Assembly: GCF_026151205.1 (NCBI RefSeq)
Contig: NC_087080.1
Span: forward strand, 6,738,797 to 6,802,796
From: Bolinopsis microptera
Taxonomy: Eukaryota; Ctenophora; Tentaculata; Lobata; Bolinopsidae
Direction of reading: 5' to 3'
DNA length: 64,000 bases
This document shows, in pieces, positions 31,563-59,837 of this stretch. Within the stretch, counting starts at the first letter, position 1; each line of letters opens with the position of its first letter. The notes under the pieces were generated by a model. It saw only the letters and a program-made list of their open reading frames with translations. It was not told the DNA's origin and ran no database searches. The translations under genes were made by a program, and so were the position numbers.

Positions 31563-34500
31563 TCATCTCGCTACAATGTCTGATCCGTTGTCCGGACGTT
31601 TTCTGACTTGTATCGTGAATGGACTACCCTGAAATCGAAGATAATAAGCAACACATACAATAGAAATAAATTAAGTTAAAGATACAAGACGTAAAAAGAC
31701 GAGAAATCAATCCCCAAAATGACATCGCTTCATTAAAAACGGGATTTTTATAATAATTATGCTTCCTTAGCTTAATCACAGAGCAGTGCGAATTCATTAC
31801 ATCAAAGCAATTAAATAATGTTATCGTTGGTGAGCCGACGGTGATGTCAAACAGTGATCACGTGACTCATAAACGCGCGTACAAATTCATTAGCTCGATT
31901 ATAATTGATATAAAAGCCACTCATATCTATTCGGTGTGTCATTCATTTGATAAACGCGAAGTTTACCTTGATATGCTCGTCCTCCCACTTGATGTTGATA
32001 GTGTACTTTCCAGCTACTTCTGGGTTGTATCTACAGTTGACGGTCCGTTCTGCGCCCTTCCACATGTCTACTCGAAATTTGTCTTTAGGTCCGTTTACTC
32101 GCACACCTGTAATAGAGAAGGTCATAATTTTCCGCTTTCAATCTCGTACAGATTAGATAAAGAATTCACAGGCCCTAGTTCAGCAGCACTGCACAGTGAC
32201 CTGAAAATAACGTCTGTCTAAATAAAACTCAACTATAAAATGTTATACTTACTTAGTGTACCATGTCCAGCGTCTCTGGTGAAGACTTGGAAATCGCCCT
32301 GATCACCCACAAAACTGTCCATCAAGCCCGGACCCTCTGCCCATATCGCTTCCGGGTTACACACACGCACTTTAAAGGGAGAGTTTGGAATGTGGGATCC
32401 GTTGAAGTAAACGTTCACTAAGTACCTGAGATTATCATTCGTTATCAGCAGCGAAGTACATTCTCAGGAATGTATACACATAATACATATTATACAGACG
32501 TCAGACATAAACAAATAATTTATTTTGAATTGTAGTTGACGAAGTGAGAGTCTCCACTCAGTGTGTTAAAACATAATTCTTTGTCGACGTTTCGGCTACA
32601 TGCCTTTGTCATAGACAGGACGTATTGATAACTTACATAGCTGCAAAGTTACAATGTTAAAATAATCTATTAATATTACGAAATATTACAACAACAAATA
32701 ACATCTTGAAACCCATACAATGAACAATACAAGTGATAACGCGAATCAACCACGTACTCATTACATAGAATCCACATACCCCAAATACAACCGGAAAAAA
32801 TCGCGAAACAACGATCACAAATTTTTTCAAAAGAAACATATATAACGGCTAAAAGAATCCACACCGCATCAAGCCGTGAACAACCTCATAGAACTACAAA
32901 CATTTTACCAAGATAGCTCCTTCATAAAACTGAGTAATCAAAAATGATTTAGGTTAATAAGTTCAATATTACATTAACTTCCAACAAAGTGACAGCAAAT
33001 GCTACCAGTGCGATAAATCCTGCATGATCAAAAACATTTGCTACCAATTAATATGCCAGATATGTAATAAGTCCTACATTGGGGAAACTGGTAGGTTTAA
33101 AAGAAGTAGAGCCTGGGAACATTACAAATCAGTAAGGGATGGCAACAAATCTACGGCCATGGGAAAGCACTACCTAAAGGAGCATGCAGACATTTCAATG
33201 CCAAACATACCGTTTCGGTTTATAGTTCGCAATAGATGCAAAGATTATGTGGACCGTCAATTGTGGCAGTCGGTTCTAATAAAACGTGAAAACCCAGAAA
33301 TAAACACTCAATTATCTGAGTCCGTAAATGAAGGTGATTGGATAAAATATACTCGGAAGTTAATGTAATATTGAACTTATTAACCTAAATAATTTTTGAT
33401 TACTCAGTTTTATGAAGGAGCTATCTTGGTAAAATGTTTGTAGTACTATGAGGTTGTTCACGGCTTGATGCGGTGTGGATTCTTTTAGCCGTTATATATG
33501 TTTCTTTTGAAAAAATTTGTGATCGTTGTTTCGCAATTTTGCCGGTTGTATTTGGGGTATGTGGATTCTATGTAATGAGTACGTGGTTGATTCGCGTTAT
33601 CACTTGTATTGTTCATTGTATGGGTTTCAAGATGTTATTTGTTGTTCTAATATTTCGTAATATTAATAGATTATTTTAACATTGTTACTTTGCAGCTATA
33701 TAAGTTATCAATACGTCCTGTCTATGACAAAGGCATGTAGCCGAAACGTCGACAAAGAATTATGTTTTAACACACTGAGTGGAGACTCTCACTTCGTCAA
33801 CTACAATTCAAAATAAATGATTGACCCACTCATAAGAGCAAAAAAAGATTACCAATAAACAAATAATGTTGAGGATAGCTCTTAGAATAAACTAGAGTTC
33901 AATAAAGCCTGCACTATTGATAGCTACATAACTCTCTGAACCATCTCCATCCTTTAACCGCAATAACATTGCCGCAATAGCATTGCCGCAATATACTATT
34001 ATTTGATTATTGTGTAAACTGTGTCCATCTACAAATACATAGATATATTTTCTGTGAAAGTATGACAAAGCGACCCGAACTCTTTAACCGTCATGTGCTA
34101 GCAACCTATCAATATATCACATTAAAAGTTGACCTTTTACAGCGTGACATGTCAAAACACTTGTCACGTTTTGTTCGTGTCTAGTCGTCTAATATTAATA
34201 TCAGATTTGCAAATTCGCTTCCCTCAATCATCTGTAGATCCGCAGTGAGTTTTATAGTGTACCAGTTACGTCAATATTTAATGGTTAATTTGAACATTTG
34301 CAATATAATACGCTGTTACGCAGATCATTGGGAACTAATCAGAGGATAATACGCACCCTCACTGTTTGTTTTTGGATGAAAGCATCACTCTTAACGATTT
34401 GAGCAGTGAGGTTGAAACAAAGTTCGTATCCAAGACACACATTATATCATACACTGTGGTTGAGAGTATTGAAGATCGCGACTACAGTGCATAGGAGAAA

Positions 34501-40500: not shown

Positions 40501-42932
40501 GAAGACCTGGTATATGAAATTGCCGCAGGTGGATCGGTAGCTAAAGTACCGGTCTACGAAAGTGACCACATGTGACCACGCTATTGTGTACACGTGACCA
40601 CATGTGACCACGCTATTGTGTACACAAGCCACAACGAACGAACAAGTTAAGTCATGTTCATGAAGATGCGTGATTTTAGGTTCGCCCGAAACTTTATTTC
40701 CATATTTCAATGCGCAGCGTATGTCATTACTTTTGTTACGCCTATTTCATATACCAGGACTTAAACTATAAGATAGATAATAAGGTACAGTAAAACCCCG
40801 ATTTACCGCGGAGTTTGGGGGAAAGGAAACATCCGCGGTAAATCGGGGTTTGCGGTAAATCGGGGACATAGACGGACATGACACCCCCTCATGTCCGTCT
40901 ATGTCCGCCTATGTCCTGTCCTTTTTGGATTCTATGAGACAACGGACGTGTTTTTTGGGACATTGGCGGACACGGACGGACATTGGCGGACTCGGACGGA
41001 CATTGGCGGACTCAGACGGACATTGGCGGACTCGGACGGACATTGGCGGACCCGGACGGACATTGGCGGACTTGGATGGACATTGGTGGACATTAGCGGA
41101 CATTGGTGGACATTAGCGGACAAACATTTTGAGGACTGAAGAGTACTGAAGAGTACTGAGGAGGATGGCTGAGAAGGATGGCTGAGGAGGATGGCTGAGG
41201 AGGATGACTGAGGAGGATGACTGAGGAGGATGACTGAGAGGGAGGAGAAGGATCAGGAAGACCCAGGAGGAGGAGGAGGAGGAGGACCCAGAAGGAGGAC
41301 CTAGGAGGAGGAGGAGGAGAACTGAGGAGGATGACTCAGGAAGAGGAGGACTCAGGAGGAGGACTGAGGAGGACTGAGAAGGAGGAGGACTGAGGAAGAG
41401 GACCCAGGAGGAGGAGGAGAAGAACTGAGGAGGAGAAGGAGGACCCAGGAGGAGGAGGACCAAGGAGGAGGAGGACCCAGGAGGAGGACCCAGGAAAAGG
41501 CCCCAGGAGGAGGAGGAGGACTGGGGAGGAGGAGAACTGTTGAGGACTGATGAGGAGGACTGAGGACGAGGAGGAAGAGTAGGAGGAGGACTGAGGAGGG
41601 GAGGAGGAAGAGGACTGGGGAGGATCAGGAAGACCCAGGAGGACCCAGGAGGACCCAGGAGGAGGAGGAGGAGGGGGACTGGGGGAGGACTGAGGAGGAG
41701 GATGGAGGACTGAGGAGAAGGATGAGGAGGAGGACTGAGGAGGACTGAGGACTGAGGAGGAAGAGGAGGAGGATGAAGAGGAGGAAGAGGACCCAGGAGG
41801 AGGACCCAGGAGGAGGACTCAGGAGGAGGAGGAGGACCCAGGAGGAGGAGGACTGTTGAGGACTGATGAGGAGGACTGAGGACGAGGAATAGGAGTAGGA
41901 GGAGGACTGAGGAAGGGAGGAGTAAGAGGACTGAGGAAGATCAGGAAGACCCAGGGGGAGGAGGAGGAAGAGTAGGAGGATGAAGCATCTAAATGTTATT
42001 TCCATTTTTGTCCGTTTTTGTCCATTTTTGTCCGCTCTATTTTTTGTCCGTTTTGAAAATATAGGGTACCGAACGGACAAAAAACATGATCCCCCCTATA
42101 ACAGCAAAAATTGAACATTTTATTTAGCAATTTAGGTGTCCATTAATGTCCGCCTATGTCCGCCTATGTCCGTCTATGTCCGCCTATGTCCGCCTATGTC
42201 CGTCTATGTCCGCCTATGTCCGCCTATGTCCGCCTATGTCCTGTCCTTTTTGGATTCTATGAGACAAGCGGACATAGACGGACGTGACACCCCCCCCTAT
42301 TAAATAGCGCACCTGCCGCCGGTAGTTTTTATCATAGCACTGGGAGGGAGGGATTCCTCCACGTGTACCAGGAAAGGACTTCCTGGAACCGGCTCGTTGC
42401 ACCAGTACACGAACAAGTCATGATCACCTGCAGGAATAGGGTGGTTTGTAATGGAGAAATACAATTTGTACAGGTAGTAGATCAAAAGGTAGATCAGTAT
42501 GTTAACGTTCGGGTTTGACGAAGATTTCTTTTCTATTTTAATGGCAAAGGAATCTTGCTTAACAATTTTATTGGCAGTTGGTCAACAACCAAAGCCTATA
42601 CTAACAGAATTAACTCGAAAATTTTGGCCGAAAAACTCTTTGGCTCTTGAAACATTGACAACTGTCTCAAATAATCATTATTCCGAAATGAACATCTAAT
42701 TGAGGACTGATGCTTATTGAGGACTAATAAATATTTTTTTAACTTATGGACAGGCTCAATTCTGCGACCTAAATTTAACGTTACATTTAATTTAAAAGAA
42801 GTTCAAGGTTCCATATTTTGGTGTACTTACCAGATTCTTTAGCGATATAAGTTCCCCTGAACTTTCCCTCTGCATATTCCTCGATCTCAACATTAGGATT
42901 AGAGTTCGCGCCTGAAATATGTAGAACATTAA

Positions 42933-42982
<50 letters not shown>

Positions 42983-45900
42983 CGTGTTAGCTACCCAATA
43001 TTATAACCCATTCGATAACGTTTGGGCCAGGGCCAACGGACATGGCGCTATCTAAATGAACATGAACCTTGTGCAGGGGTGAACTTCAACTATATTAGAG
43101 CGATCATTCTCGTTTATTCTCTGCTTAATTTGATCAACAAATCCCAGGATTCCACAATTTTGGTGGATTTGAATTAAATGGGCCGATCATGGTCATGCTG
43201 CTATCTCAAATAACGTTACGAAGGGGTGGCCAATTCAAAGATGCAATATCTTAATTACTAGCTCAATTTAAGTTTTCACATCCTATCAGTTGTAAAATTA
43301 TGTTTGTAGTTGAAACTTGAAGAATTATATTGTTGCTTTACTAAGTATGTAACAGGGCGTTAGATGTAAATATATATATTTACATACTTAATTCAGCAAC
43401 ATATATGTGACGAATCTTAAATAAAAAGCTACCAGTACAGAAAGGGTATAAGGGTAATGGTTTTAAAGTTAATGTTAGATTTAGGGTTAGATCAAGGGTT
43501 AGGTTTAAAGAAAGCAGCAGTGAGGATTTGGCAAAAACAATTATAAGTATTATATTATGTAGCGTAAGATTCAGTCTTGATTTGTTTCCAAGAAAAACAT
43601 ATTGTCCAGAGTCAATAATATATCACAGGCTGTGGCTTGCATTCTTCGCCTTTGTTTTTGTAACCAGTAGTGTCGATTCCAAAGAGTTGTCACAACCCAG
43701 CATTAACGTTAACAACACCTGACAACACCTAACAACACCTAACAACCCAGTATTAACCCTAACAACTATCTTAACACCAGCAGCTCAAACAAGCCCGAGC
43801 ATGTCCAAATGTGCTAACATGACCTTACAATCACAACTGAACTGCACCAGTCTGATGAACAGTACGGAGAGTATGACGGAGAGAGTGGTGGTGCTAGGGA
43901 CGTTGCTGGTTTCTACCATTGGTGGGATGATCGGTAACACGGCGTTTCTCCTCCTTGCTGATGTTTTTCTGCCATTTGATAGGGTTACTCTCGTTTTATT
44001 TAGGTGAGAAGATACATTATTGAGACCGGTTAAGGGGGGGGGGGGGGGGTTCACCCTGATTTTTTTGTGAAACTTGGTTTCGAGATAGCAGTTGACCAAC
44101 AAACTAGGACCAGTGACCGAACTTTTGAGGGGGTCCCGGACCCCAACCGCCAAACGTTGCCCGCATGCCAGCCACGCCCATATTTGGTCCAAATTAGGCC
44201 CAATTTAACCAAATACCCTGATCATGCCCAAAATCCAGATTTTAAGTGCTCTACTTGTAGCTAGTGGTTCCCTGAACTCGTATATGAATTTTCATCAAGA
44301 TTGGACAAAAAATGACTGAGTTATGAGCAAAAAACCATATGACCATATTTGGGCATACGCACCAAATTTGATCGATTTTGGCCCATAAATTGGTCAAATA
44401 TCAATATTTTTGAATGAAACCAACTTTATATGGAAGGTAAGCCTATACTACACATTATCTATGATTATCAGCTCAGTATCTACCTAATTGTGGATTCTAA
44501 GTTCAAATAATCGCAAAAAATGAACAAAACTGCCCATATCTCAGTTCGCGATATTTGCAAAACTGACTTCGCTCAAAACAATAGAACTCAATAGGGTTTC
44601 AATATTTTTTCATGAAATTTTCAGAATCAACGTAGAATTGTCTCATGACCTTAAGTTTTGGGACAGAATTTTTGGCGGCCAAATTCTAAATTTAGCAGTG
44701 CAAATTTTGGAATTTAGCCGCCAAATTTTTTTAAAGGCCTAACTTAAAATTCTGTCTCAAAACTTAAGGTCATGAGACAATTCTACGTTGATTCTGAAAA
44801 TTTCATGAAAAAATATTGAAACCCTATTGAGTTCTATTGTTTTGAGCGAAGTCAGTTTTGCAAATATCGCGAACTGAGATATGGGCAGTTTTGTTCATTT
44901 TTTGCGATTATTTGAACATAGAATCCACAATTAGGTAGATACTGAGCTGATAATCATAGATAATGTGTAGTATAGGCTTACCTTCCATATAAAGTTGGTT
45001 TCATTCAAAAATATTGATATTTGACCAATTTATGGGCCAAAATCGATCAAATTTGGTGCGTATGCCCAAATATGGTCATATGGTTTTTTGCTCATAACTC
45101 AGTCATTTTTTGTCCAATCTTGATGAAAATTCATATACGAGTTCAGGGAACCACTAGCTACAAGTAGAGCACTTGAAATCTGGATTTTGGGCATGTTCAG
45201 GGTATTTGGCTAAAGTGGGCCTAATTTGGACCAAATATGGGCGTGGCTGCCCCGCGGGCACCGTTTGGCGGTTGGGGTCCGGGACCCCCTCAAAAGTTTG
45301 GTCACTGGTCCTAGTTTGTTGGTCAACTGCTATCTCGAAACCAATTTTCACAAAAAAATCAGGGTGAACCCCCCCCCCCCCCCCCCCCCCCCCTTAACGA
45401 GTAAGCTAGACGATTTAGATGTCGTCTTGTTCGAATTTTTGTTGTATTTTTATCTTTGCTAATAATTAAATATTTCACTTGGCAGGCAGATATCGATAGG
45501 AGACCTTGTGACCATCTCTGTGACACTGTTACCAGCATTTCCTACACACTTATTGCGGGACTGGGGGTTGGGAATCACCGTTTGTTACGTCTCTGCTTAT
45601 GGGTTCCTGGTGCCGTGGCTAGCTAAACTAGGCTTCTCACTCTTCAGCTCCATTCAGAAGTTAATATAGTTAAAATGGTTGCATTTCAGAAAATAAACAG
45701 AAGGGCAAAAACTGCACATTTTTGTTTTAGTTCTATATTTGTTTTAGGACGATTTAGAATTTGAAAAAATTTGTATTATTATCTGATAGGATACGTTTTT
45801 AAAAGTGTAAAATTCAGGTGTTTGATTTGGAGGCGCCCGCTAAATCAGCTACTGATAAGAAACAAGAAAGTGTTTACAGTGAGCATTATGATCTGGATAG

Positions 45901-48900
45901 GAACAACTGGATGGATCACATACACTTTACTTGCAAAGTATTGACCGCTGAAATTTATTGGGACAGGAGCGTGTCTAATGTTTGCCAAAACTTTTGGGAT
46001 GAATTTAGAAATGTTAATGCACGATTTCGCAGTTAAATATCAACTTGCACTTTAAAATAACTTGATATCAGAGAATGTAAAATGTAAATGTTATCTCCTT
46101 GCGCAGATTAATAGGTTGGCGATCTTGAGATCGTGGTATTCAACAGGATTTAAAGTTTCCAATTTCAATGATAAAATTAATCGCTATTTTCAGAGTGGAA
46201 ACAGAGTTCAATAGCAGTATGGAGCTATGTGTGCTATCCTTCAAGGGAGAATACAGGATATCCTTTCTCATCATAATAAGCCTGATCATAATATCAACCA
46301 TCCTCCTCTTCCTTATCAATTCCTACTGCTGGAGAGTCGTCAGCAATGTGGCTCAGAGGTTTAAAAATAGTTGCTTCACAGGAGGTCATATGTTCCAGAA
46401 CAAATGTCAACCATACACCAGAGATGAAGTGGATGTGGATAACGAAAATAATAATATTGGTAATAATATTAATTTTGAGGAAAACCTGACCACCCAAATG
46501 GCTAAAAACACATCACTGTATGCGACCCCAACGTACAGTGAACCAACCATGATAAACATGCTGAGCGATGAACCTCGAAAACCAGATGCTGAGAGTGCAC
46601 CAACCTCTCCTCGGTTAGAATCAGGGGCAACATCATCTTTTAGTAGAACAGAAGATGAGCTTACAAGGAAACGAAACAGACTTCCATCACTGAAAGATAG
46701 AATAGTAGTGATGGTGGAGCGGGACCTGATAGTGCGGAATGACAGCGTAGTAACAGAGAACAGCACACCACGTACCTCAATGTCCAGTTACAGCCGCACA
46801 GTGGATTTATACCGGTACAAGACCGAGCGGGAGAGAAAGGGGAAGGTGTTTTACCGGGGTTTAGTAGGGGTGTCAGGGGTAACCACGGTCTTTCTTGTCA
46901 CCTGGCTGCCCGTTATGTCGCAGCTCTTGCTTGCTGTGTTGTCTCAGAGTTTCAATATTTCGCCACCCCCATGGCTGGACAAGGTGGTGTTGTTTGCCAC
47001 GGGGATTGGGGTGTGGTGCAGCTTGTTCGTCTATTGGAGAGTTCGTTGACGCAGATAATACAATAAAACCCAGGTTTATCGTACCCCGATTTACTGTTAA
47101 CACAAATTTACTGTACCTCGTTTCTTTGCTCTCAAGATGTTTTTAAAAATGTCAACATGTTAATTGTTAGTTTGATATCACGTGATCATTCAAAACAGCT
47201 ATACGTTTTCTTATCCCCAAAGTGAACGGTAAGTTGGGGTTTCACTGTACATAAATATTAAAAAAAAAGGAAATTATTCGTTAAGTAAAGAATTTGCGTC
47301 CTTAAAGAATAAAGATAAGCTAAAGTTTTACAACATCAATAATCATTCGTTAAATAAAAGAGATTTTTTAAATAAAAGAGATTTTCGCTGGTTTTCAAGG
47401 CAAGTTCTTCTTATTCTGGATACTGTGTTGAGCCGTACATTTTTGTTGCCTACAGGTTTTCAGCAATATTATGTTTTCATTTTAAACCTATGCTGACTGC
47501 CTCCAATCCGACGCGACGTGGAAGAAATTTTTTGAGTTCTGTCACAGTGTGTTTTTCAATTTGGTATCAAAGTATTAATAACGACGAACAGTTATTTTTC
47601 TAATATTTTAGAAACGAAATCAATATACATGTCATTAGATTGTATAATGTAATTGTACATGAAGTATAATGTATATTTTATATTATATGTTTCTGTAATT
47701 TATTGTTAAAATACTAATTAATTATGCAGTTTTATGCATTTATGTAGCATGTATGTTATGTATTTATTCTTAAACGTAAATGAAAAAAAAATGGTTTGAG
47801 TTATATCCTCAGTACTCACTTCATTTAATGAAATCTTAGTAATCTTTGATATTAAAAGCTTCTAAAAAATGTCGCGTCCTTAATAAATTCATGTGGAATA
47901 AACGTTCCAGAATTGAATGAGAATATTGCAGCTGTTAATCTCCTGAGGATAGAGGCATACTCAGAGTTCTGGGTTCTGGGCCTTGATGTCAGCTGTAATT
48001 TAGCCAGTATTTAGCCAGTATTTAGCCAGTATTTAGCCAGTATCGCTACCTAATGTTTTCTGCACATCAGCATTATTGGGTACTGGATAGAAGGCTGCAT
48101 AATTCAGCAAATCCAATGAATATGCCCTCAGCCACGCACTATTTATCACAAAGCCCAGGTTGAACTTCTTGTATAACTCCAGTCCATTCCAAACGATTGG
48201 GAGTATGTCAAGTGCTGATTGACAGATGAACTATGAAGAAGAGTAAAAAACCATCAGAATAGTAACTGAGACAAGGCGAGACGTTCCCAGGTCGATATCA
48301 TTAAAAATATGTCGTATATTATTATATCTGGGTGAAATATGTCGTGGTTTTTATCACCCGATGGGGCATGTTTGTGCGGCTTTCCGGTCAGATATTTGAT
48401 TGATTAACAAAGCTCATAACAATACTACTCTAATGAATAGTGCATACTGCATCACCGTCACAGTTTGAGCTGAGTTGTATTTCACAGAGGATCGGAACTG
48501 AATAAATTAAAGAAACTTGATATCTTCACTTCTCACTCCTCACTGTGATATTCTACATTGGTGAAACCTGGTTCACTATATCAGGAGGGAGTTCTGCTAC
48601 CATTATAATATTAATTTTAACCTCTTCTTCATTGTAATATATTTTAACCCCAGCTCTCGCGTTGTTTAGAGCAGGCATCCGAAATATTTACCCAGAACTA
48701 ATCAACAATCGCCATTTGCCGATAATGAGCTTTAGTTGTGCAGTTCTGAGTGGACAAGCCCCAGCTATGGTTGACCTAAATAGTGTATTTAAATTAAATT
48801 TAAGAAATGTGACTTACCTTGGATATTAGCAGTAAGATGACCTACTCCAGCGGTTTGAGCGTTTACTAAGAACTCTGCTGGCCAACCAGGCCTGGCGATG

Positions 48901-51900
48901 TGTATTCCTTCTCCTGGGGGGCAACGGTCATTTAACAAGCGTGTAAATAACTTCTGATAGATTCCATCATTCTTTTTAAATTACCAAACAGCTGCTATAA
49001 TTACTGCTAGTAGATATTGTCAGTTCTATCTTGCTCTTTTTAATATCTTATCATGAGGTCATAAGATACCCAAAATAGCCCAATGTTATCAGCTCAGATA
49101 TAAGAAAAGCAAACATACCACTGAGATCACATCTAGTAGCTTCTGGAGGAGTAAAATATACCAAAATAAGCAAAAATAAGACTAATTGATAATCAGATGC
49201 CATCAAGGCGGTATCCAAGAAGTCTGACCAGAATTCCTCGTGGAATTCTCCGTGAACCCTAACCCTAACCCAAACCATAATCATAACCCTAACCATATTC
49301 CACTTAGAGATAGTGGAATTCCACTATCGCATCGGGCTTCTTGGAAAGCACCCAAACCAATGACTCTAAAGCTCTAACAAAACACAGCTGACATACCGCT
49401 GACTACACATCTGGTAGCATCAGGAGGTCCCAGAACTACAGCCTTGAAGGGGGACCCTGGCACATGTTGTTCAGCCCACGTGACCGATATGATTAGGTCT
49501 ATAAACTGGTTAGGAACGTAGGTTACACTGTATTCTCCTAGACCCAGGTCTTCTATCAGAGGCTGTGGAGGGGTTGTATCAAATAATATTATAGTTGTCA
49601 GGGAAAGGTTGTTCTGCGTGAGTTGATAATCATAAACGCCCTTATTAGCTAATTACCAATCAACAGGCAGAGATAATGTGAGAAAAAAGTTTTCCCCGTC
49701 GAAATGGTTAAACCGGACCTTAATTAACTTAGCAATTTTTAGTTGGTATTCATGAATACTATGCAGTTTATTCCATCTTTTTATTGATTATATATTAAAC
49801 GTGGTAAGAGGAAAATGTGGTCACGTAATTGATGCTGAGATAATATTGAAACGGGTTAATGAAGTTCTGTTACAAGGTGTTAACGATCATCAAACTGATA
49901 TGTTGATATCCATACATTGATTAATCTTAAAACCTGGCAAACGAACTTTTCCCACTAGAAAACTAATCTAACTCACGACAATAGGTTCGCTGCCAGGGTT
50001 AGATATCTTAACATGCAACTCTCCCACCCCAGCATTCCCTGCATGAACTGTAAACTTGGAAGGTTCGCCCAGGGTACCTCGTGTCAGTCCCAGACCTGAT
50101 GCGATGCAGCGCTGTGCTGTGTTCTCCGCATAGCCTGATGTTATCTTGCTGTTCTGAGGGGTTTTTGTTGTCGTCAAAATTTAAACCTTTTACTTGCAGT
50201 GAGCTTATCCCACAGGGTAATTAGAAGAATAAATTAATATTTGCGGAGTAAATTTTGTTGTCCCATGCAGGCTGGAACTTGCAACCGATAAATTGGCAGT
50301 AAGAACATGATGCCATCATAATAATACCACCGACCTCTGGCCCTATGTTCACATATTATCTTGCTAGAACTTAGCGTATTTTACTAAGAAACAACTGCTT
50401 TCTCAGTTCTCACCCTAAATTGCCACATGTAAGTAGCCATGTTCAGCTCTGTAATCTCGTGATTCATGAACTCCTCCACCTTTATTCTAGGGAACACTCC
50501 CAGCGCATCATACGCGATCTTCAAACCAGTCTTAACATTTTCCTCCGCTGAGGGAACAAGGTGAGTTGTCGTTAAATCATAAAAAACAAGTTCAACAAAA
50601 TATTATGTAGGTATTGTTCAAAGAGAATATCCGAATCACACCAATTGTCTAACAACAAAAACGTTTACAGCTCCCTTACAGCTCCCCTACAGCTCCCCTA
50701 CAACTCCCCTACAGCTCCCCTACAGCTCCCTTACAGCTCCCATACTGCAGCTCCCCTACAACTCCCCTGCAGCTCCCCTACAGCTCCCCTACAGTTCCCC
50801 TACAGCTCCCCTACAGCTCCCCTACAGCTCCCCTACAGCTCCCCTACAGCTCCCCTGCAACTCCCCTACAGCTCCCCTGCAGCTCCCCTAAAACTCCCCT
50901 ACAGCTCCCCTACAGCTCCCCTGCAGCTCCCTTACAGCTAGTACAGCTCCCCTACAGCTCCCCTACAACTCCCCTACAGCTCCCCTACAACTCCCCTACA
51001 GCTCCCATACAGCTCCCCTACAGCTCCCCTACAACTCCCCTACAGCTCCCCTACAGCTCCCCTGCAGCTCCCCTACAGCTCCCCTACAGCTCCCTTACAG
51101 CTAGTACAGCTCCCTTACAGCTCCCCTACAGCTCCCCTGCAGCTCCCTTACAGCTCCCCTACAGCTCCCCTACAGCTCCCCTGCAGCTCCCTTACAGCTA
51201 GTACAGCTCCCCTACAGCTAGTACAGCTCCCATACAGCTCCCCTACAGCTCCCCTGCAGCTCCCTTACAGCTAGTACAGCTCCCCTACAGCTCCCCTAAA
51301 ACTCCACTACAGCTCCCCTACAGCTCCCCTACAGCTCCCTTACAGCTAGTACAGCTCCCATAATGCAGCTCCCATACAGCTCCCCTACAGCTCCCCTACA
51401 ACTCCCCTACAGCTCCCCTGCAGCTCCCCTAAAACTCCCCTTCAGCTCCCCTACAGCTCCCCTACAGCTCCCTTACAGCTAGTACAGCTCCCATAATGCA
51501 GCTCCCCTACAGCTCCCCTACAGCTCCCCTACAGCTCCCCTACAGCTCCCCTACAGCTCCCCTACAGCTAGTACAGCTCCCATACTGCAGCTCCCCTAAA
51601 ACTCCCCTACAGCTCCCCTACAGCTCCCCTACAGCTCCCCTGCAGCTCCCCTACAGCTCCCCTACAGCTCCCCTACAGCTCCCCTACAGCTCCCTTACAG
51701 CTAGTACAGCTCCCCTGCAGCTCCCCTACAGCTCCCCTACAGCTCCCCTACAGCTCCCCTACAGCTCCCCTACAGCTCCCTTACAGCTAGTACAGCTCCC
51801 ATACTGCAGCTCCCCTAAAACTCACCCGTATCAGGGCTAACATCATCCATATTCTCCCAACTACCAGGTGCCAGAGCCTCCACTAGGTAGGCCAGGTTCA

Positions 51901-54900
51901 CACCGTTATTCCAGTCTAGTGTCAGATTCTCAATACTCCTGGAGAGGTTTTTGTGGTGAGACTGAGGCACAAAATCATTTCTTTCAACATCTATCAACAC
52001 AAACCTTTCAACATTAATTATTAGTTAGTAGTTCACCTGTGAGGTACTTTGGCACGGAGCCAAAATAGAAGATTGTTGAACAGTTGAGTGTTGAAGCAGC
52101 TGACATACGTCATGATACTGAGTTCGTCGACCTCGGGGTTAGCCATGTCGTCTGGAGCTAGCAGAGCTGGGATACTCAGTTCCTCTTCTGCTGTCTGAGG
52201 TGAGAGGGTCATTTTTGGTCACAAACAGGGGGAGGTCATTCATTGGCCACGAGATAATAATATGATACTTTAAACGGAATTCAATATAACAATACTTACG
52301 GCATTGATAATTGAGCATCCTGAAAGACTAAATGTCTAAGTAAAGTTGTCATGAAACTTAGTAAAACTATAAGCTAACCTGCATAGCAGAGGTGATGTTT
52401 TCCACAGCGTTGTTCTCATCTAACAGGTTCCAGTCAGGTATTGAACCAGGTAAGCAGGTTTCAACTAGTGCTGAGAGTGCACGACCGTTGTTCCAGTCCG
52501 TCGTGAAGTTCTTTATGTTGGATTCTGGGATCACCGCCTGCAAGAAAGAAAAAAAACCATTATTTCGCCGTAATTAATTAATAGTGTTAAATATTTATAT
52601 CGTATTCGTTTGAGACTTTTAAAATTATCATGAAACATTAATGATCGTGCTATAAGACATTTTTTGTTTTTTTAATCCTTTCATTGAGCCTAAAATTGTG
52701 CATATCGCTATATCGGAAATTTACCTGTATCCAGTCGAGCATGGCTCTTTTGGCGTCTTCAGCTTGTATGTGATATTTCTGAATGAGCATCCAAACCAGT
52801 CCTAGTATCAGCTTAACATTGCCTCCCATTATTTCTTCGTTTGCTGAAATCATTGATGTTAGCAATTAATATCCTGAATTAGAATAGAAGTCTGTAAAGC
52901 AAATTCATATTCTTTGAAAAATAAAAGATTTCATTTCAAGGATCCTCTAGGATGTCACAAATTTCGCTCTAAATCTCGTTACTATTACGTAAAACAATTA
53001 GTACTCCTACTATTAATCTCACTAAACGTGTAAACTCCCTCGCTATAATATAGCGAGGGAGTTATATTATAATAGAAGGCCCACAAAACGGCCCCAGTAT
53101 AACTGATAGCTAGACTCACAAGTTTCAGTAAACTCCTGATCCACGACCCTCTCCTCCACCAAAAAACCCAAGAAATTCTTCCAGTTCTCCTCCTTCTGCT
53201 GCTCCGTCTCGCACTCCTCGTGGTACTTGAACGGTAGCTCTTTCTCCCTGCACACTTCCACCAGTGCTATCAGTGGGGCAGCAGTCTGCAGGTCCCGGAC
53301 CAGGGACCTCACCAGGGGCTTCTGGGCCTTTACTAGCTTGTTGTTCATCCATCGTATGAAGGTGTGAGCTTGGATACGCGGGGAGTTTTGCATCGTCTGT
53401 TTACTTTTTGCAGTGTTGTGATTATGTGGATTCAGAGGGGATACGTAGGGGGGCATTCACAGGGTACCCTGATATTTTACTCTTATCTTTTCAACGGGAT
53501 TTGCTGGTGTATCTCGTTATTTTTAAAGAGATATTGCGGTCTGATCTATCTTGTTGGAAGAGAGAATCAGAGAATGGAGCAGTGATTTCTGGATCTTCTT
53601 GCTAGAGAGCTAGAGTAACGTGTCACACACAGAGATTAACAGTAAAATAAGTTATATATAACAAGCGGTGTAATATATGAAATATATCACTAGTGCACTG
53701 AAATCCGGATCAAATTTTGCTAAAATAAGCAAACAAAAAATAAACTTTAGCTACGAATAAATTCTTACGATCGATAAATTAAACATAGTAAACTCAAAAA
53801 CAAGTGTCCCGTGATAAAGGAATGATTGTAGCGTACTACGTTCGTATGATAATAAATATTAAAGGTAAAAGTAAAATGAGGCTTTCTGATGTTTTAAACA
53901 GAAATGTCTCAATATACTGGACTTAGTAGATGATATTGTGTTTTAATGTAAAGGAAGGTTAGTTGCAGCCTGTAGGAAAATTAACACTTGAGTAACACAA
54001 TCTATCTCTTTAAAAAAAATCTATGTCGGACAGTAATCTGTCAACTGTTATAATATTTTGAATAAAGCTAGAAGCAGTATAACGTATTTATAAGTCAATG
54101 ATGCATATCTAAAAATTTAGAATATGGAAAATGACAATAAAGATGAACTGGTTTTTTGTACTTGATGATAAAAATAAGCCCTAAAAATAAACCCTCTAGA
54201 CCAATAAAAAGGCCATAAAAGCGAATGGTAGAAGATCAAGAATGTAACACTGAGTAAAGGAAGTAGAACTTGTCTTCCTAAGCAATAATCAGCCTAGCTT
54301 AGCTACAACCTTATTTGGAAAAGTGCCCATTATGTAAACAAAAACTGTGCACAGTCTATGCAATGATGTCGTCATACATGATACTTGTCTACGTTACAAC
54401 TTCTTGGTGCCTCAGTATGTATAGACCAGGTGTTTAGTATGGTGAACCACCGCATATTATGCTAAATCTAGAGTAAGTTATACTGAACATGAATATTGTG
54501 CTAACACTGAAAATAACCACGAAATCTTGTTTCAAGCTACTGTTCTAACTGGCTACATAACAACTAAACACTATAACGGAACGAACCAAAGATTAATCTA
54601 AAATACTACTTTATACTTTATCAAAACCACTCCCAGATACAATACCACACAAAATGTAACAGACCGACTTTCCGCGGTACAATATCTTTCATAACAACAC
54701 AACTTTCAACAATACAACTCAAAGAAACTAATTAAGTTTTCACAGTTCTGAATAACGTCATGAGAAGGTACGGCGTAACGCTCAGCATTCCCGGCACAGA
54801 CATATATAATAATAATATCTTACAATACAAAAACACAACAACAATAGCGCACACAGCTAACTTTGCATATAAAAACTACATGGGTCCAATGCAATGGTAG

Positions 54901-54947
54901 GAGTCCGCCATATTGTCTTAACCGGAAGGGAGAGCGAGCGAGAGAGA

Positions 54948-55003
<56 letters not shown>

Positions 55004-58000
55004 AAATGTGTACTCTCTTAGCTGTTAGCGTTCTTTCTGCGCTAACAACTGATATTTTAATGGCCGTGAGTTACACATATCCCCCAGCAGCTACAGTTAC
55101 AGCTTTATGCCGTGCTAGAGGTACCAATTACGTTGTTGCACAGTGCAAGTGGTCACGTTGAGTGAATTGGGTTCTAAAGAGAGAAAGAGAAAGAGTCTAG
55201 GTTGCATGTGCTGCACTAATTTATACCGCTCGATCCCTGGGTTAAGTAGTATCTCAATTGTTCTCTTCATAACATGTTACAGCTTTACAGGCGCTTGTTT
55301 CATAACAAGTTACAGCTTTACAGGCGCTTGTTTCATAACATGTTACAGCTTTACAGGCGCTTGTTTCATAACATGTTACAGCTTTACAGGCGCTTGTTTC
55401 ATAACATGTTACAGCTTTACAGGCGCTTGTTTCATAACATGTTACAGCTTTACAGGCGCTTGTTTCATAACATGTTACAGCTTTACAGGCGCTTGTTTCA
55501 TAACATGTTACAGCTTTACAGGCGCTTGTTTCATAACATGTTACAGCTTTACAGGCGCTTGTTTCATAACAAGTTACAGCTTTACAGGCGCTTGTTTCAT
55601 AACAAGTTACAGCTTTACAGGCGCTTGTTTCATAACAAGTTACAGCTTTACAGGCGCTTGTTTCATAACATGTTACAGCTTTACAGGCGCTTGTTTCATA
55701 ACAAGTTACAGCTTTACAGGCGCTTGTTTCATAACAAGTTACAGCTTTACAGGCGCTTGTTTCATAACAAGTTACAGCTTTACAGGCGCTTGTTTCATAA
55801 CAAGTTACAGCTTTACAGGCGCTTGTTTCATAACAAGTTACAGCTTTACAGGCGCTTGTTTCATAACATGTTACAGCTTTACAGGCGCTTGTTTCATAAC
55901 AAGTTACAGCTTTACAGGCGCTTGTTTCATAACAAGTTACAGCTTTACAGGCGCTTGTTTCATAACAAGTTACAGCTTTACAGGCGCTTGTTTCATAACA
56001 TGTTACAGCTTTACAGGCGCTTGTTTCATAACATGTTACAGCTTTACAGGCGCTTGTTTCATAACAAGTTACAGCTTTACAGGCGCTTGTTTCATAACAA
56101 GTTACAGCTTTACAGGCGCTTGTTTCATAACAAGTTACAGCTTTACAGGCGCTGTTTCATAACAAGTTACAGCTTTACTGGCGCTTGTTTCATAACAGGT
56201 TACAGCTTTACAGGCGCTTGTTTCATAACAGGTTACAGCTTTACAGGCGCTTGTTTCATAACAAGTTACAGCTTTACAGGCGCTGTTTCATAACAAGTTA
56301 CAGCTTTACTGGCGCTTGTTTCATAACAAGTTACAGGTTTACAGGCGCTTGTTTCATAACAGGTTACAGCTTTACAGGCGCTTGTTATGAACCTGGATTT
56401 GTTAAGACTGAACAAAGCTTCCTTAGTTCTCTTATACAGCTGTTATACACAGCTATCTGTACTGATTATGGCCAGATAATATAGCGTATTATAGTGTATG
56501 CCCTACGATTTACTAAGTATATCGTGAACAACCAGAAGCTGAGTATTGAGATATAGCCTCACTTCACAGGATCTGCTGCAGGTATTCAACAAGTTTCTTG
56601 TAACTGCAGCGGGGGCCATCCAGTCTTATATGGGCCACCCTGGATTATTCATACATGTAGTTGCAGCCTGATACGAATAACCATCTTATTTAACCGATCG
56701 TTAACAATATAAAATATACAATATACATCCAGTCTTATATGGGCCACCCTGGATTATTCATACATGTAGTTGCAGCCTGATACGAATAACCATCTTATTT
56801 AACCGATCGTTAACAATATAAAATATACAATATACATCCAGTCTTATATGGGCCACCCTGGATTATTCATACTATGTAGTTGCAGCCTGATACGAATAAC
56901 CATCTTATTTAACCGATCGTTAACAATATAAAATATACAATATACATGCAAGAAACAGGTAGTGGGTGCCATAACAAGGTACAATAAAAACAGGCGACAG
57001 TAATCACACACAGATAGTACAAAGGAAATTAAATAATTTACACGATTAAAATCATCACTACACCAGCTCCTGCTCGTATTATAATCACACGAATAAAAGC
57101 AAGCAAAGGGGGGAAAAGAGGAGGAGGAGGAGGAGAACGGTTAAATATATGACGAGGAGAGCAACCTGTAGTAGGTCTACACACTGGACATAATGTAGGT
57201 GTGTCGTTAGTGAGGCTATTGTGGGGAGGCAGTGGAGAGAATGACGCGACGGGGAAATCACCATCGTACCACCACTCTGAAAGAGAAGATAGCACTGTAC
57301 TATAACACACACACACACACACACACATACACATTACACGTGTGGTAGGTGATGAGTATCATGGGGCGGCGTGTCACGTGTTCTATAACAAGAGCCCGGT
57401 ATGATGGTTATTTATACATAGTGCCCACTTTATAACACATGAATATATTAATGGCAGTGAGGGTGGGGAGGCAGCAGGCGTGGAAACTAAGTGAAACTCA
57501 GGTCTCGGACAATCTTACATGAATAAATTCACACGAATCTCACGTGCTGCAAAGTGCAGATTTCATTTAGATGAACTAAGTGAGAACAAAAGAACGCTCA
57601 ATTTCTAAAATATTTCAAGAATGAAAAACTAAAGGGGGCACTCACTGTCCAAGTTGAAGCACAAACAAAGATATAAAAAATTCAGAAAACTGAATTCAAG
57701 TTTTTAAAGAACTCTAAAAATGTAAAACAAAGGGCTCTCCCTATCGGAGTTTAAACACAAACAAACAGAAACAAGTTATCGAAAAAGCAGACGAAATAGC
57801 TTACAAAATAAAAATTGGAATACATAATAAAGAAACACACTACAACGTCCGGTCCGTCCTAATGGCGTAGCTGCGTAGATTAAAGCGGAGCTGATGGTAT
57901 ATATATATATATAATAGACAGATGAACCAAGAGTAAGTAACCAGAGTAAGAGAGAGTACTGTAAATATATATATGCTAGCTCCAAGCAGCAGAGCTAATA

Positions 58001-58996
58001 CAATTCTCAGTCGTAGCATAGGTACAGGACAAATGGTTTAATATCGTAATTGTATAATGTATCCTGGATACAGTGTTTAGATTTGAGGGAGGGAGTATTA
58101 TAAGTGAACGTAAAGTATTTTAAATGGAACGTAAGGCAAGAACTTTCTACTAGGGAAATTTGTAAATTTAGGATTCGATCACCGTGGTTAAGTAAGACAG
58201 GTGCAGTCAACAGTTTTAGTTAAATACCAAAATTATACGTTTTGAGATATAACAAAGTAGGTAGGACAGCAGACTTAAATATAACCAATACTGAGTACTG
58301 ATGCAATGTAGAAATGACGTAAAACTGGAATGACATGTGGCAGCGATCAGCTAATAACCCTGTGGTAACGACCAATCAAATTCGTAAATCGCAGTCACGT
58401 GTCTAAACAAATGACGTGACTCCTCCCGATATTGAAGTATATTTTACTTACACATAGCAGTTAAGTTGATCCCTTCAGCGGACATGAATTCAAGAGCAAT
58501 AGACAGGTTTTCCAGTTTCTGAGCGTTGGATTTGGGAGATTTGTGGTATTTAAGTTGTACACCAGTGAGATATTCCAGTAGGATTAACAGGGTGACTCCA
58601 CTTTCCAAGTCTAAGGGAAAAAGGGTGGTTTAGATTTGTTGGGAAGATAAATTATTGTTGTTCCCTATCTCGTATTAAAGCAATTATACTAATTTTAACA
58701 GATTAACTAATTAACCAATTAACTAATTAAAAGATTAACTAATAAGCAAATTAACTAATAGGCAAATTAACTGATCTAATTTTTAATTATGGACTAACTA
58801 AACGTATTACAACTGTCAAATTATATAATTAATTATTGAATATAACAACTGATTGTTTGCCCATACCAATGAAGATGTCGTCAATAAGCGGGGATCCCCT
58901 GCGGTTGAGGGCACTGTTGCACCACCTGGTAAAAGTCATCTCCTGGATCTCCAGGAACCTACCCCGCTCCACTTTGTGGTCTATGAGTACAGACAT
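31563..58996 (-). CDS. filamin-type protein, 3 CH domains + 4 filamin repeats (Jitterbug-like)
   Basis: Isoform A exons: 58996-58867, 58610-58452, 52843-52725, 52537-52379, 52194-52037, 51980-51826, 50547-50414, 50153-49977, 49562-49397, 48913-48818, 42911-42831, 42427-42313, 37592-37404, 32425-32253, 32106-31967, 31628-31563. The sum is 2217 nt (738 residues plus stop) with every phase matching. CH1 is at about residues 14-124, CH2 129-225, CH3 230-336, then four filamin Ig repeats (about 345-728), each ending with the PxSPF-type strand (VPGSPF, VPGSPF, IPNSPF, IKGSPF). It should bind and cross-link actin at the cell cortex. Human filamins have two CH domains; three is the known layout of fly Jitterbug. 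The protein ends soon after repeat 4 (DNGSDIVAR, stop TGA). A possible AATAAA lies at 31029-31024. Confidence 0.85.
32518..33818 (+). mobile_element. Penelope-like retroelement fragment with inverted arms
   Basis: Two arms of about 465 bp (32518-32982 and 33355-33818) are inverted copies of each other and flank a short core. The core encodes a GIY-YIG nuclease remnant on the plus strand. Penelope-like elements are known to end in a GIY-YIG endonuclease and often carry LTR-like copies in odd orientations. The reverse transcriptase is absent, so this is a 5'-truncated copy. It lies in a filamin intron. Confidence 0.72.
33024..33368 (+). pseudogene. GIY-YIG endonuclease end of a Penelope-like element
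   Basis: An open frame of about 114 residues reading YQLICQICNKSYIGETGR, with the paired cysteines and YIGETGR of Penelope GIY-YIG domains, then RAWEHYKS and the conserved KHYLKEH. It ends at TAA just inside the right arm. There is no upstream reverse transcriptase, so the frame is a fragment and not an independent gene. Confidence 0.75.
35072..36392 (-). mobile_element. Mutator-like (MULE) DNA transposon remnant
   Basis: Subterminal inverted repeats match between about 35150-35250 and 36225-36315 (both contain GGGCTAGATCTGGGGTAGAG, in opposite senses). Outer ends near 35072 and 36392 share AGACTTTGGG next to a CCGGA. Between them is a transposase C-terminal fragment. The element is far too short for a full transposase gene, so it is internally deleted. 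Confidence 0.65.
35363..35959 (-). pseudogene. MULE/FLYWCH-type transposase C-terminal fragment
   Basis: A 198-residue open frame. The stretch RTSNMVEGFHRGFKTRVNRP followed by KPSVQEYFRAIKEQQ matches the end of MULE-type transposases (pattern RTNNxVEGxHxxFN, then HPxIWxFIxxLKxEQ). The catalytic DDE core is missing. It is framed by inverted repeats and sits in a filamin intron on the same strand as filamin. It is therefore an exon-like sequence but not part of that gene. Confidence 0.65.
36544..37354. mobile_element. mariner-type palindromic MITE
   Basis: The ends read GGGTGGGCCTCAAAAGTCTA on both sides in opposite orientation and are flanked by TATA (TA target). The two halves are inverted copies of roughly 370 bp around a loop of about 70 bp near 36950, for example AATTAGTGAGATCTCAGCGA in the right arm and its complement in the left. 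It has no coding capacity. Confidence 0.7.
38702..39000 (+). mobile_element. mariner-like terminal fragment
   Basis: TACAGGGTGGCCCAGAAGTA at 38702 is a typical mariner-type end at a TA. The following 200 bp contain broken coding-like sequence with several stops (MAEQAID and ATMHEWR-like words). A second TACAGGGTGTC start in the same orientation occurs at 39125. No matching right end was found, so the limits are uncertain. Confidence 0.35.
40003..40058. other. 24-bp stem hairpin
   Basis: GTTTGCCACACTGTTTAACT and its complement with one mismatch, separated by AATTATTATA. It is isolated in a filamin intron and may be the core of an old MITE. Confidence 0.7.
40788..40851. repeat. short palindrome with pogo/Tigger-like ends
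   Basis: CAGTAAAACCCCGATTTACC at 40788 faces its complement GGTAAATCGGGGTTT ending at 40851, followed by another GCGGTAAATCGGGG. It resembles the ends of the 47.06-kb MITE and marks the left side of the 40.8-42.3-kb repeat mosaic. Confidence 0.45.
40860..41120. repeat. 20-bp GGACATTGGCGGACTCGGAC minisatellite
   Basis: Units of 20 bp centred on GGACATTGGCGGAC repeat from about 40950 to 41118, preceded by ATGTCCGTCTATGTCCGCCT repeats. The same TGTCCGCCTATG array recurs at 42148-42240, and both arrays adjoin TGTCCTTTTTGGATTCTATG (40917 and 42241). Confidence 0.7.
41125..41985. repeat. 860-bp purine (GGAGGA/GACTGA) tract
   Basis: The plus strand is almost pure purine, built of GAGGAGGAGGACTGAGGAGG-like words with CCCAGGAGG insertions. 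The pyrimidine-rich complement is in the filamin sense strand, 330 bp after the donor of the exon at 42313. All long open frames here are composition artefacts. Confidence 0.8.
42129..42299. repeat. TGTCCGCCTATG tandem repeats
   Basis: 12-bp units alternating TGTCCGCCTATG and TGTCCGTCTATG, ending in the same TCCTGTCCTTTTTGGATTCT block seen at 40913. It forms the right border of the mosaic and ends only 14 bp beyond a filamin donor site. Confidence 0.75.
42938..42982. repeat. poly-G tract of more than 40 bases
   Basis: An uninterrupted G run ending in GGCGTGTTAG, only about 27 bp upstream (filamin sense) of the acceptor of the exon at 42911. Read in the filamin sense it is a poly-C tract close to a 3' splice site. 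Its exact length may be unreliable in an assembly. Confidence 0.8.
43801..47049 (+). CDS. divergent GPCR-like gene nested antisense in a filamin intron
   Basis: Exon 1 (43801-44003) encodes an N-terminus with three N-glycosylation sequons and TM1 with a GMIGN motif. Exon 2 (45486-about 45659) encodes two hydrophobic segments (IGDLVTISVTLLPAFPTHLL and a following segment starting ITVCYVSAYG). The last exon (46194-47049) has TM5, a long Ser/Thr-rich third loop of about 160 residues with basic ends, TM6 with TWLP, and TM7. Phases fit: 2, 2, then stop. I could not find a TM4 or DRY-like motif, and TM7 lacks NPxxY, so an exon is missing from my model, or the receptor is highly divergent or decayed. 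An AATAAA at 47308 could end the transcript. Role and ligand are unknown. Confidence 0.55.
44034..45397. repeat. near-perfect 1.36-kb hairpin with poly-G ends
   Basis: Two arms of about 630 bp (44034-44668 and 44750-45397) are almost identical inverted copies around a short AT-rich centre. Each arm starts with a run of G (C on the other side) outside TTCACCCTGATTTTTTTGTG. Flanks read TTAA on both sides, as a TTAA target duplication would. No transposase is encoded. It occupies the first intron of the GPCR-like gene. Confidence 0.85.
47061..47247. mobile_element. short pogo/Tigger-like MITE
   Basis: The left end is CAATAAAACCC and the right end, read in reverse, CAGTGAAACCCC, followed inward on both sides by TTA and CGT-type matches. 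TA dinucleotides flank it on both sides (47059 and 47248). It is 187 bp, non-coding and starts 11 bp after the GPCR-like stop codon. Its left end contributes an AATAAA. Confidence 0.55.
49119..49142 (-). CDS. possible 24-nt cassette microexon of filamin
   Basis: A 24-nt stretch preceded by a pyrimidine-rich CTCCTCCAG acceptor and followed by a GTATGT donor. It starts and ends in phase 1, so it could be included between exons 49562-49397 and 48913-48818 without frame change, adding EATRCDLS. It is a near copy of the last codons and donor of the preceding exon (DATRCVVSG then GTATGT), so it arose by local duplication. Whether it is spliced cannot be told from sequence. Confidence 0.35.
50414..52843 (-). 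other. shared CH1 end, CH2 and CH3 exons of the filamin gene
   Basis: Exon 52843-52725 closes CH1 and opens CH2 (AMLDWIQ). Exons 52537-52379 and 52194-52037 give the CH2 core, with NFTTDWNNGRALSALVE and NPEVDELSIMTYVS, both typical of filamin CH2. CH3 starts LLFWLRAKVP, continues with NLTLDWNNGVNLAYLVEA in exon 51980-51826 and ends EITELNMATYMWQF in exon 50547-50414. CH3 is of the same CH2-like type and has an insert of about 20 residues after KVP. The acceptor before the fifth shared junction is either 51981 or 52005; both keep frame. Confidence 0.82.
50664..51818. repeat. 11-bp satellite CTCCCCTACAG in a filamin intron
   Basis: About a hundred units of AGCTCCCCTAC with ACAAC, TGCAG and TTACAG variants, broken at intervals by CTAGTACAGCTCCC. 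It fills nearly the whole intron between exons 51826 and 50547. On the transcribed strand each unit gives GGGG spaced by 7 bases. Confidence 0.92.
53034..53064. other. 31-bp perfect-arm hairpin beside alternative exon B
   Basis: AACTCCCTCGCTATA faces TATAGCGAGGGAGTT with a one-base centre. It starts about 56 bases after the donor of start-B exon and 190 bases before the shared acceptor, so it would fold in the intron RNA between them. Confidence 0.75.
53120..53456 (-). CDS. filamin alternative start B: first part of CH1, one exon
   Basis: An open exon of 112 codons plus one base with in-frame ATGs at 53456 and 53393. It reads IQAHTFIRWMNNKL and later DLQTAAPLIALVEVC, so it repeats the same CH1 segment as start A but with a divergent sequence. 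It ends EFTET plus one base T at a GTGAGT donor. The phase and the last base are the same as in exon 2a, and it reads into the exon at 52843 (SNEEIMGG). Used with the rest of the gene it gives 2265 nt, 754 residues. It is therefore best explained as a second promoter/first exon. A pseudo-exon is unlikely given its full open frame. Confidence 0.75.
54938..54998. repeat. (GA)n microsatellite
   Basis: A GA/GC-GA run beginning GCGAGCGAGAGAG and continuing as pure GAGA for about 40 bp. Shorter (GA) or (CT) runs occur at 2101, 22280 and 24170. Confidence 0.9.
55269..56392. repeat. 33-bp satellite, about 34 units
   Basis: The unit is ACATGTTACAGCTTTACAGG followed by CGCTTGTTTCATA. Units differ mainly at one dinucleotide (ACATGTT, ACAAGTT, ACAGGTT). 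Since 33 is a multiple of three, several frames stay open for over 300 codons, but this is not a gene. It lies in the filamin intron upstream of start B. Confidence 0.92.
56617..56945. repeat. 109-bp tandem repeat x 3
   Basis: Three almost identical copies starting at 56617, 56726 and 56835, each beginning CATCCAGTCTTATATGGGCC and ending ATAAAATATACAATATA. They differ by a single inserted base in copy 3, so the expansion is recent. Confidence 0.9.
57305..57330. repeat. (AC)n microsatellite
   Basis: A perfect CACACACACACACACA run followed by CATACACATT, in the filamin intron. Confidence 0.85.
58452..58996 (-). CDS. filamin alternative start A: first part of CH1, two exons
   Basis: Exon 1a (58996-58867) starts at an ATG and reads EIQEMTFTRWCNSAL, the classic opening of an actin-binding CH1 domain. 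Exon 2a (58610-58452) continues DLESGVTLLILLEYLTG and ends INLTAM plus one base at a GTAAGT donor. That phase-1 end joins the exon at 52843, completing CH1 with SNEEIMGGNVKLILGLVW. The frame is open for a few codons above the ATG without another ATG, so an upstream exon is not excluded. The next exon is 5.6 kb away. Confidence 0.82.
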
Positions 58997-59837
58997 TGCG
59001 GCCTTCCCGGTCACACGGGAAATTTACTTTACCTAAACTTTGTTGGGAGACGATGAATAAACGAATAAACTGTAAATTGAACGCTTTGAAAATATATGTT
59101 CTTAACTATGATCTGAGTCTGTAGGAAGGTTTTGGAAATATATGATTGATACAAATGATTTTCGAGACCTGCTCATGTTCATTGCACAATTACATCAAGC
59201 AGCTGATAAGGTTATCATATTTGATGATGGTGTGCAGCCTTGTACCTAATTACATAACTAAAACATTATCCATAGTATAATTCGAAAGATTATTTCTGCC
59301 TGTATGTACAACAATTGAATTGTGTTTACATTTAAATCGGCTGGATCTTCTGTAAAGATGAACTCTTTTTGATGCGATTAAAACTTTCTTCTATAGAGCA
59401 CTACTAGCTAATTTCTTGTTTCATTAATTAAATACTTTCAAAAGAGTCTTTAAATTTAACAGATGCTAGACACCACAGGTCAGATATCAATTACCGTTTA
59501 AGGGGGCCGGGGGGGGGGGGGTCCCAGCAACAACCGATTTGACCAAATTTACTATTCAAATCAACGCTTCAGTAAATTTAATGTTTCAGTTGTCATAGTG
59601 ACGACCAAAACCAAGAAACATCTGCTAACTTTTAATTTCCAGGATATGATCGTGAATTCATATTATCTGGTGAATGGTGTAAATATAGTGGTATTTTAAA
59701 CTTTAGCTTAAAATTAAAAATATCATTCCTAGCCAAAATTATTGCCAATCAAAGGTCAGCGCTTATGTGCGAGCGATTTTCATCTTTTTTTCTATCTTCT
59801 ACCTTTTTTGAGCGATCACGCTGAAACATTCAGGATG

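Follow-up and report, generated by a model that had tools for sequence, protein, structure and literature searches.

Can a single gene offer two different versions of the front half of an actin-binding domain through the choice of its first coding exons? The question is raised by a filamin locus of the ctenophore Bolinopsis microptera, contained in a stretch of 64,000 nucleotides referred to here as the window, for which it had been predicted that two alternative sets of first exons encode the same half of the first calponin-homology domain (CH1). In keeping with a ctenophore genome, one glutamate receptor out of 32 matches obtained in it was compared with the PDB, where ML032222a iGluR, a protein of the comb jelly Mnemiopsis, supplied the three leading hits (E 1.5e-51 to 4.7e-51) ahead of the following one at 1.2e-39. 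The reading that we favour, with a probability of roughly 0.68, is that of a filamin gene with three CH domains and two alternative first coding exon sets, each of which provides a front half of CH1.

Gene structure and domain content

The minus strand of the window, which forms part of the contig designated C9, carries a filamin gene in which three CH domains are followed by filamin repeats, and two chains of exons could be traced through this gene. Chain A comprises 12 exons and chain B comprises 11; both pass into the shared exon 52843-52725, stay open across nine more shared exons beyond it and are open down to 42315, where tracing stopped. The features concerned are as follows:

58867..58996, minus strand: exon A1, 130 nt; start codon and CH1 helix A (MSVLIDHK...DDIFI); donor GTATGG; the stop-to-stop frame begins at 59023
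58452..58610, minus strand: exon A2, 159 nt; DLESGV...NLTAM, the remaining variable CH1 half of A; ends in phase 1 with T; donor GTAAGT
53120..53393, minus strand: exon B, 274 nt; start codon and variable CH1 half (MQNSPRIQAHTFIRW...FTET); ends in phase 1 with T; donor GTGAGT
53394..53456, minus strand: in-frame extension of exon B; alternative ATG at 53456, directly after the in-frame TGA 53459-53457
52725..52843, minus strand: shared exon finishing CH1 (SNEEIMGGNVKLILGLVWMLIQKYHI); intron position and phase the same in filamin 3 (F3)
52379..52537, minus strand: shared exon, first part of CH2
52037..52194, minus strand: shared exon; CH2 ends and CH3 begins here
51826..51938, minus strand: shared exon, CH3
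50414..50547, minus strand: shared exon, end of CH3
49977..50153, minus strand: shared exon, first part of filamin repeat 1
49397..49562, minus strand: shared exon; filamin repeat 1 ends and repeat 2 begins here
48818..48913, minus strand: shared exon, filamin repeat 2
42831..42911, minus strand: shared exon, filamin repeat 2
42315..42427, minus strand: shared exon, end of filamin repeat 2; the 3' end is provisional, with more exons beyond

With the Pfam profile CH1 scores 61.9 bits in the A form and 44.6 bits in the B form, the latter match covering profile positions 3-108 of 109 when exon B is read on into the shared exon. CH2 was also recognised downstream of CH1 by profile search, CH3 was matched with 39.3 bits over 102 aa between CH2 and filamin repeat 1, and two filamin repeats scoring 72.5 and 61.0 bits follow the CH domains within the traced exons. 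The top 9 PDB sequences were human filamin-A or filamin-B for the A form and the B form alike, and the best match was to filamin-B (E 3.2e-49 for the A form and 8.8e-41 for the B form, CH2 contributing to both). The alignment of the CH1-CH2 linker with human FLNB contains a 13-column gap. Two features, the presence of a third CH domain and a linker that falls short of that of human FLNB by 13 columns, match the jitterbug/FLN-2 kind, FLN-2 being without a CH1-CH2 linker (PMC3143143), and judged by these the gene is a member of the three-CH (jitterbug/FLN-2-like) filamins.

Several other features were observed in the filamin portion of the window. A possible mini-exon of 24 nt at 49119-49142 (minus strand), reading E-ATRCDLS-G with phase 1 in and out, repeats the DATRCVVSG end of the preceding exon and could be included optionally, in frame, where filamin repeat 2 begins. 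At 31967-32182 (minus strand) a match to the filamin repeat, scoring 35.4 bits and interrupted by three stops, may be a read-through intron or a decayed repeat. An 11-bp unit (TACAGCTCCCC) repeated about 100 times fills the intron between the last two CH3 exons (50666-51788), and another filamin intron holds a long inverted repeat at 44030-45400 which has C-/G-runs at its ends and by eye resembles a fold-back element. An open frame of 306 aa, possibly a nested gene, lies on the opposite strand (46129-47049, plus strand) within a filamin intron of 5.9 kb.

Two front halves and their common junction

In agreement with the original prediction, as regards both coordinates and sequence, A1 plus A2 and, separately, exon B were found to encode the front half of CH1. 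A2 and B end in the same phase and with the same base, namely phase 1 with T, and both halves complete CH1 through the shared exon 52843-52725, whose first two bases, CA, join this T to specify a serine in both chains. The strong difference in sequence that had been reported between the two versions (TFTRWCNSAL in A, TFIRWMNNKL in B) was likewise observed, the identity between A and B amounting to 26/83. The proposal that B lacks the spacing of the DLxSGVxLLxLLE stretch had to be abandoned, as A (DLESGVTLLILLEYL) and B (DLQTAAPLIALVEVC) align without a gap and the DL..LL.LLE spacing is kept; relative to A, B loses the S-G pair and one leucine in this stretch. Immediately ahead of the junction B is three residues longer than A.

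Coding character of exon B

In a genome-wide profile search (264.65 Mb) exon B gave a CH match of 30.6 bits (E 6.9e-5), which is above the family cut-off, and on its own in the Pfam CH family it scored 32.2 bits (E 1.3e-7, profile positions 3-74 of 109); exon A2 alone scored 22.7 bits, below the cut-off of 26 bits. The GC content of exon B at the three codon positions is 0.57/0.30/0.73, that of the flanking introns being 0.25-0.38. Its codon score is 0.61 per codon, a value reached by 0 of 2000 shuffles, with 0.30 for the best of 83 intron windows and 0.50 for one wrong frame of exon B itself; the test was trained on 15 long open frames at other loci, these frames being unverified as genes. 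A chance open reading frame was rejected as an explanation for exon B on the strength of the CH matches, genome-wide and in Pfam, together with this coding-like codon score.

The residues that B retains were also assessed against five other filamin CH1 domains. In the core columns, defined as those hydrophobic in all five and excluding columns gapped in B or any reference row, B keeps a hydrophobic residue at 19 of 23, as compared to 9 of 59 residues of B elsewhere (Fisher 1.7e-8); these values are from the stricter version of the test without alanine, the figures with alanine being 19/24 and 14/58 (p 5.2e-6). Of the columns invariant in the five, B keeps 11 out of 15 and loses 4. By comparison, any one of the five filamins retains 15 of the 17-20 columns that are invariant in the other four, and B retains 11-15 of these columns. 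The front half of CH1 from A outscores that from B throughout.

A recent or repeated copy, or a duplicate introduced by the assembly, was rejected given the A-B identity of 26/83 and the lack of a second DNA copy of the B exon: no such copy was found elsewhere in the genome by a search that passes over simple repeats and words of very high frequency. A stretch of 163 bases located 0.4 kb upstream of the ATG of B has an 80% match on contig C5. A single scan of viral contigs with B revealed no relative.

Origin of exon B

The intron at the junction has the same position and phase in the window gene and in filamin F3 at C9:2.33 Mb, which indicates that it is older than the present arrangement of exon B. 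Introns within the front half of CH1 differ between the genes, and B consists of one exon where A consists of two. By raw identity human FLNB is nearest to B (29/84), followed by F2 (26/84) and A (26/83), while A shares 34/82 residues with F2 and 33/82 with human FLNB, and is thus no closer to B. In a tree based on an alignment retaining 85 of 96 columns A and B appeared as sisters with a support of 70/78, a grouping which is not significant and which comes from a bootstrap that had yet to settle; a grouping of B with human FLNB was not rejected (p-AU 0.245), and that of B with F2 was weakly rejected (0.047). The branch leading to B has a length of 3.56 as compared to 0.56 for A. The tree includes as F5 a gene at about C5:17.24 Mb, near which no filamin repeat was found, leaving its identity as a filamin unsupported.

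A genome-wide protein search using exon B together with the shared exon returned 13 matches at E values up to 10, two of which were the window's own exons, and detected no B-like exon at other filamin genes. When ten loci were rescanned, nothing B-like was obtained above 8 bits among those matches that began within model positions 1-80. Exon B would most likely have originated from an intragenic duplicate of the CH1 front half that then diverged fast.

The very long branch of B means that relaxed constraint is possible, and this branch, the loss of some otherwise invariant residues and the lack of any detected paralogue with a B-like exon would all suit an alternative in which the duplicated front half is a relic that is now unused, or is spliced as noise only. 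We consider this explanation unlikely, although it is the foremost competitor, as the frame of B is intact and leads to a donor that is of consensus type and correctly phased, whereas stops would be expected at 31% identity to A (26/83); the coding-like codon profile and the retained core hydrophobics also argue against a relic.

Exon B as a probable first coding exon

An in-frame TGA immediately precedes ATG 53456, and the second in-frame ATG, at 53393, has an A at -3. The interval from A2 to the end of B contains 295 AG sites, of which just four (53368, 53332, 53266 and 53254) would allow A2 to be joined to B in frame, and all four fall within the coding sequence of B, with none upstream of ATG 53393; the count refers to direct joins of A2 to B. 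Owing to the upstream in-frame stop and the lack of in-frame A2 joins before the ATG, B, which has its own start codon and a donor in the common phase, has the appearance of a first coding exon in its own right.

It is conceivable that B is instead used as an internal or extra exon, by way of a series join from A2, trans-splicing or an unseen 5' exon, since the four AG sites permit an open series join, a CAG is present three bases upstream of ATG 53393 and ctenophores have spliced leaders. A series join at any of these sites would, however, place two tandem front halves in one CH1, and the CAG is not preceded by an evident pyrimidine tract, so that such use of B is distinctly improbable. A further alternative, in which B would be a small independent gene or a piece of a mobile element that sits in the intron by chance, is highly implausible: its frame does run shortly past the donor (stop-to-stop 53456-53070), but its CH match is confined to the leading portion of the domain, its end has the phase of the ancestral junction, and no copy of the exon was found elsewhere.

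Upstream of B, at 54905..54928 (minus strand), a single match to CTTCCGG...ATGGCGG with 0 mismatches was observed, a motif of ETS/YY1-like type, which represents a weak possible promoter signature given that 12 of 100 shuffles carry at least one match when up to 2 mismatches are allowed. The intron between A2 and B contains 34 copies of a 33-bp tandem repeat with 97% matches (55266-56386), and a 109-bp unit is present in 3 copies at 56617-56947. The intron between B and the shared exon contains, 57 nt past the B donor, a near-perfect hairpin with a 14-bp stem (53033-53063); the fold of 120 nt around it has a z of -4.48 and is equalled by 0 of 200 shuffles.

Predicted consequences for the actin-binding surface

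The anatomy of the locus, the common phase, the homology and the intact coding nature of B are established at the level of sequence. According to the favoured reading of two alternative first coding exon sets, the upstream start would give rise to isoform A (A1 and A2), and a start within the 5.6 kb intron to isoform B (one exon), each set encoding helix A together with the DL and ABS2' helices prior to a phase-1 splice to the shared exon that completes CH1. B would be transcribed from its own promoter, or be given a spliced leader.

The extent of the exchange was expressed in utrophin numbering, in which ABD1 covers 18-33, ABD2' 84-94 and ABD2 107-126 (PMC7360965); the utrophin stretch used is identical to PDB 1qag, and the numbering was anchored on residues named in papers. 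The junction serine corresponds to utrophin residue 111. All 11 positions of ABD2' (ABS2') lie in the exchanged half and 7 of them differ between A and B, including position 90, which is Glu in B and either Leu or Met in A, human FLNB, F2, F3, F4 and utrophin. For ABD2 (ABS2) 4 of the 20 positions (107-110) are exchanged and 3 differ (at 109, Ala in A and Glu in B), the remaining ABS2, CH2 and CH3 being constant in both forms. The N-terminal flank ahead of IQ comprises 16 residues in A, whereas in B it has 6 or 27 residues according to which ATG is used. The first part, as far as the DL helix, carries a net charge of 0 in A as against +7 in B, and the remainder one of -2 and -9, respectively. 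The equivalents of Q33 and T36, which belong to the CH1-CH2 interface, are Gln and Thr in both A and B, and K121 falls within the shared exon.

In PMC7688639 and PMC7360965, CH1 is described as supplying most of the F-actin contact, and the choice of filament as being influenced by the CH1 N-terminal, ABS2' and ABS2 surfaces. Because the exchange takes in the N-terminal flank, ABS2' and the first positions of ABS2, with the remainder of ABS2, CH2 and CH3 fixed, we infer that B would bind actin differently from A, perhaps more weakly at ABS2', and that the isoforms would differ in actin affinity or in their preference for a filament state. We tentatively suggest, as a possibility of somewhat less than even standing, that the locus acts as an actin-recognition switch controlled by start-site choice, yielding two proteins that are identical from the middle of CH1 onwards and have different N-terminal, ABS2' and early ABS2 surfaces. 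If this is true, the same crosslinker could be directed to other filament types, or its affinity adjusted, with the control by CH2 and the rod unchanged, and a gene that swaps these surfaces at constant CH2, CH3 and rod would constitute a clean test of the role of the CH1 front half in filamin targeting. It would also mean that, in an early-branching animal, a cytoskeletal crosslinker was diversified at the level of exons in addition to gene duplication.

Comparison with known systems

Alternative first exons in CH proteins and the partial exchange of a CH domain, as in smoothelin, are already known. The view that the arrangement is more than the usual alternative N-terminal tail is a fair one, albeit with precedents in the start sites of Shot and the splicing of smoothelin. 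The order CH1-CH2-CH3 followed by filamin repeats, and a CH1-CH2 linker far shorter than that of human filamin, are shared with Drosophila jitterbug and C. elegans FLN-2 (PMC3143143). The same source reports alternative transcription starts for fln-2, which are proposed here; the fln-1 and fln-2 isoforms it covers vary by truncation or start, and an exchange of CH1 halves is not described in the sections on these isoforms. Our search of titles and the beginnings of abstracts found no filamin with exchanged CH1 halves, which is weak evidence of absence as subscription journals were mostly outside its scope.

A parallel to the exchange itself is smoothelin (SMTN), in which the alternative exons E20 and E21 (PMC10643981) swap about half of a CH domain in a tissue-specific manner while the other half stays constant. 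Unlike the present case, the swap in SMTN concerns the C-terminal half (helices IV-VI) of a single CH2-type domain and employs a cassette exon with its own stop, whereas here it is the N-terminal half of CH1 that is exchanged, at the start of the gene. In the spectraplakin Short stop the choice of start alters the CH1 part of a tandem-CH domain as well as the lead sequence, and the resulting isoforms interact differently with actin; Shot-PC, however, is without the whole of CH1 (PMC9320987), whereas here CH1 would be rebuilt from other residues. Plectin resembles the window gene in that a single gene with an actin-binding domain (ABD) is served by several first exons, which send the isoforms to different places, but these exons are short leads ahead of the ABD (exons 2-8) and lie outside CH1 (PMC8466646). 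For Nesprin-1/Msp300 the start exon likewise sets the CH content, although the CH domains are present or absent and not exchanged (PMC8616381). Replacement of the front half of CH1 by the choice of start site would thus combine features of Shot, plectin, nesprin and smoothelin, in a combination that looks new.
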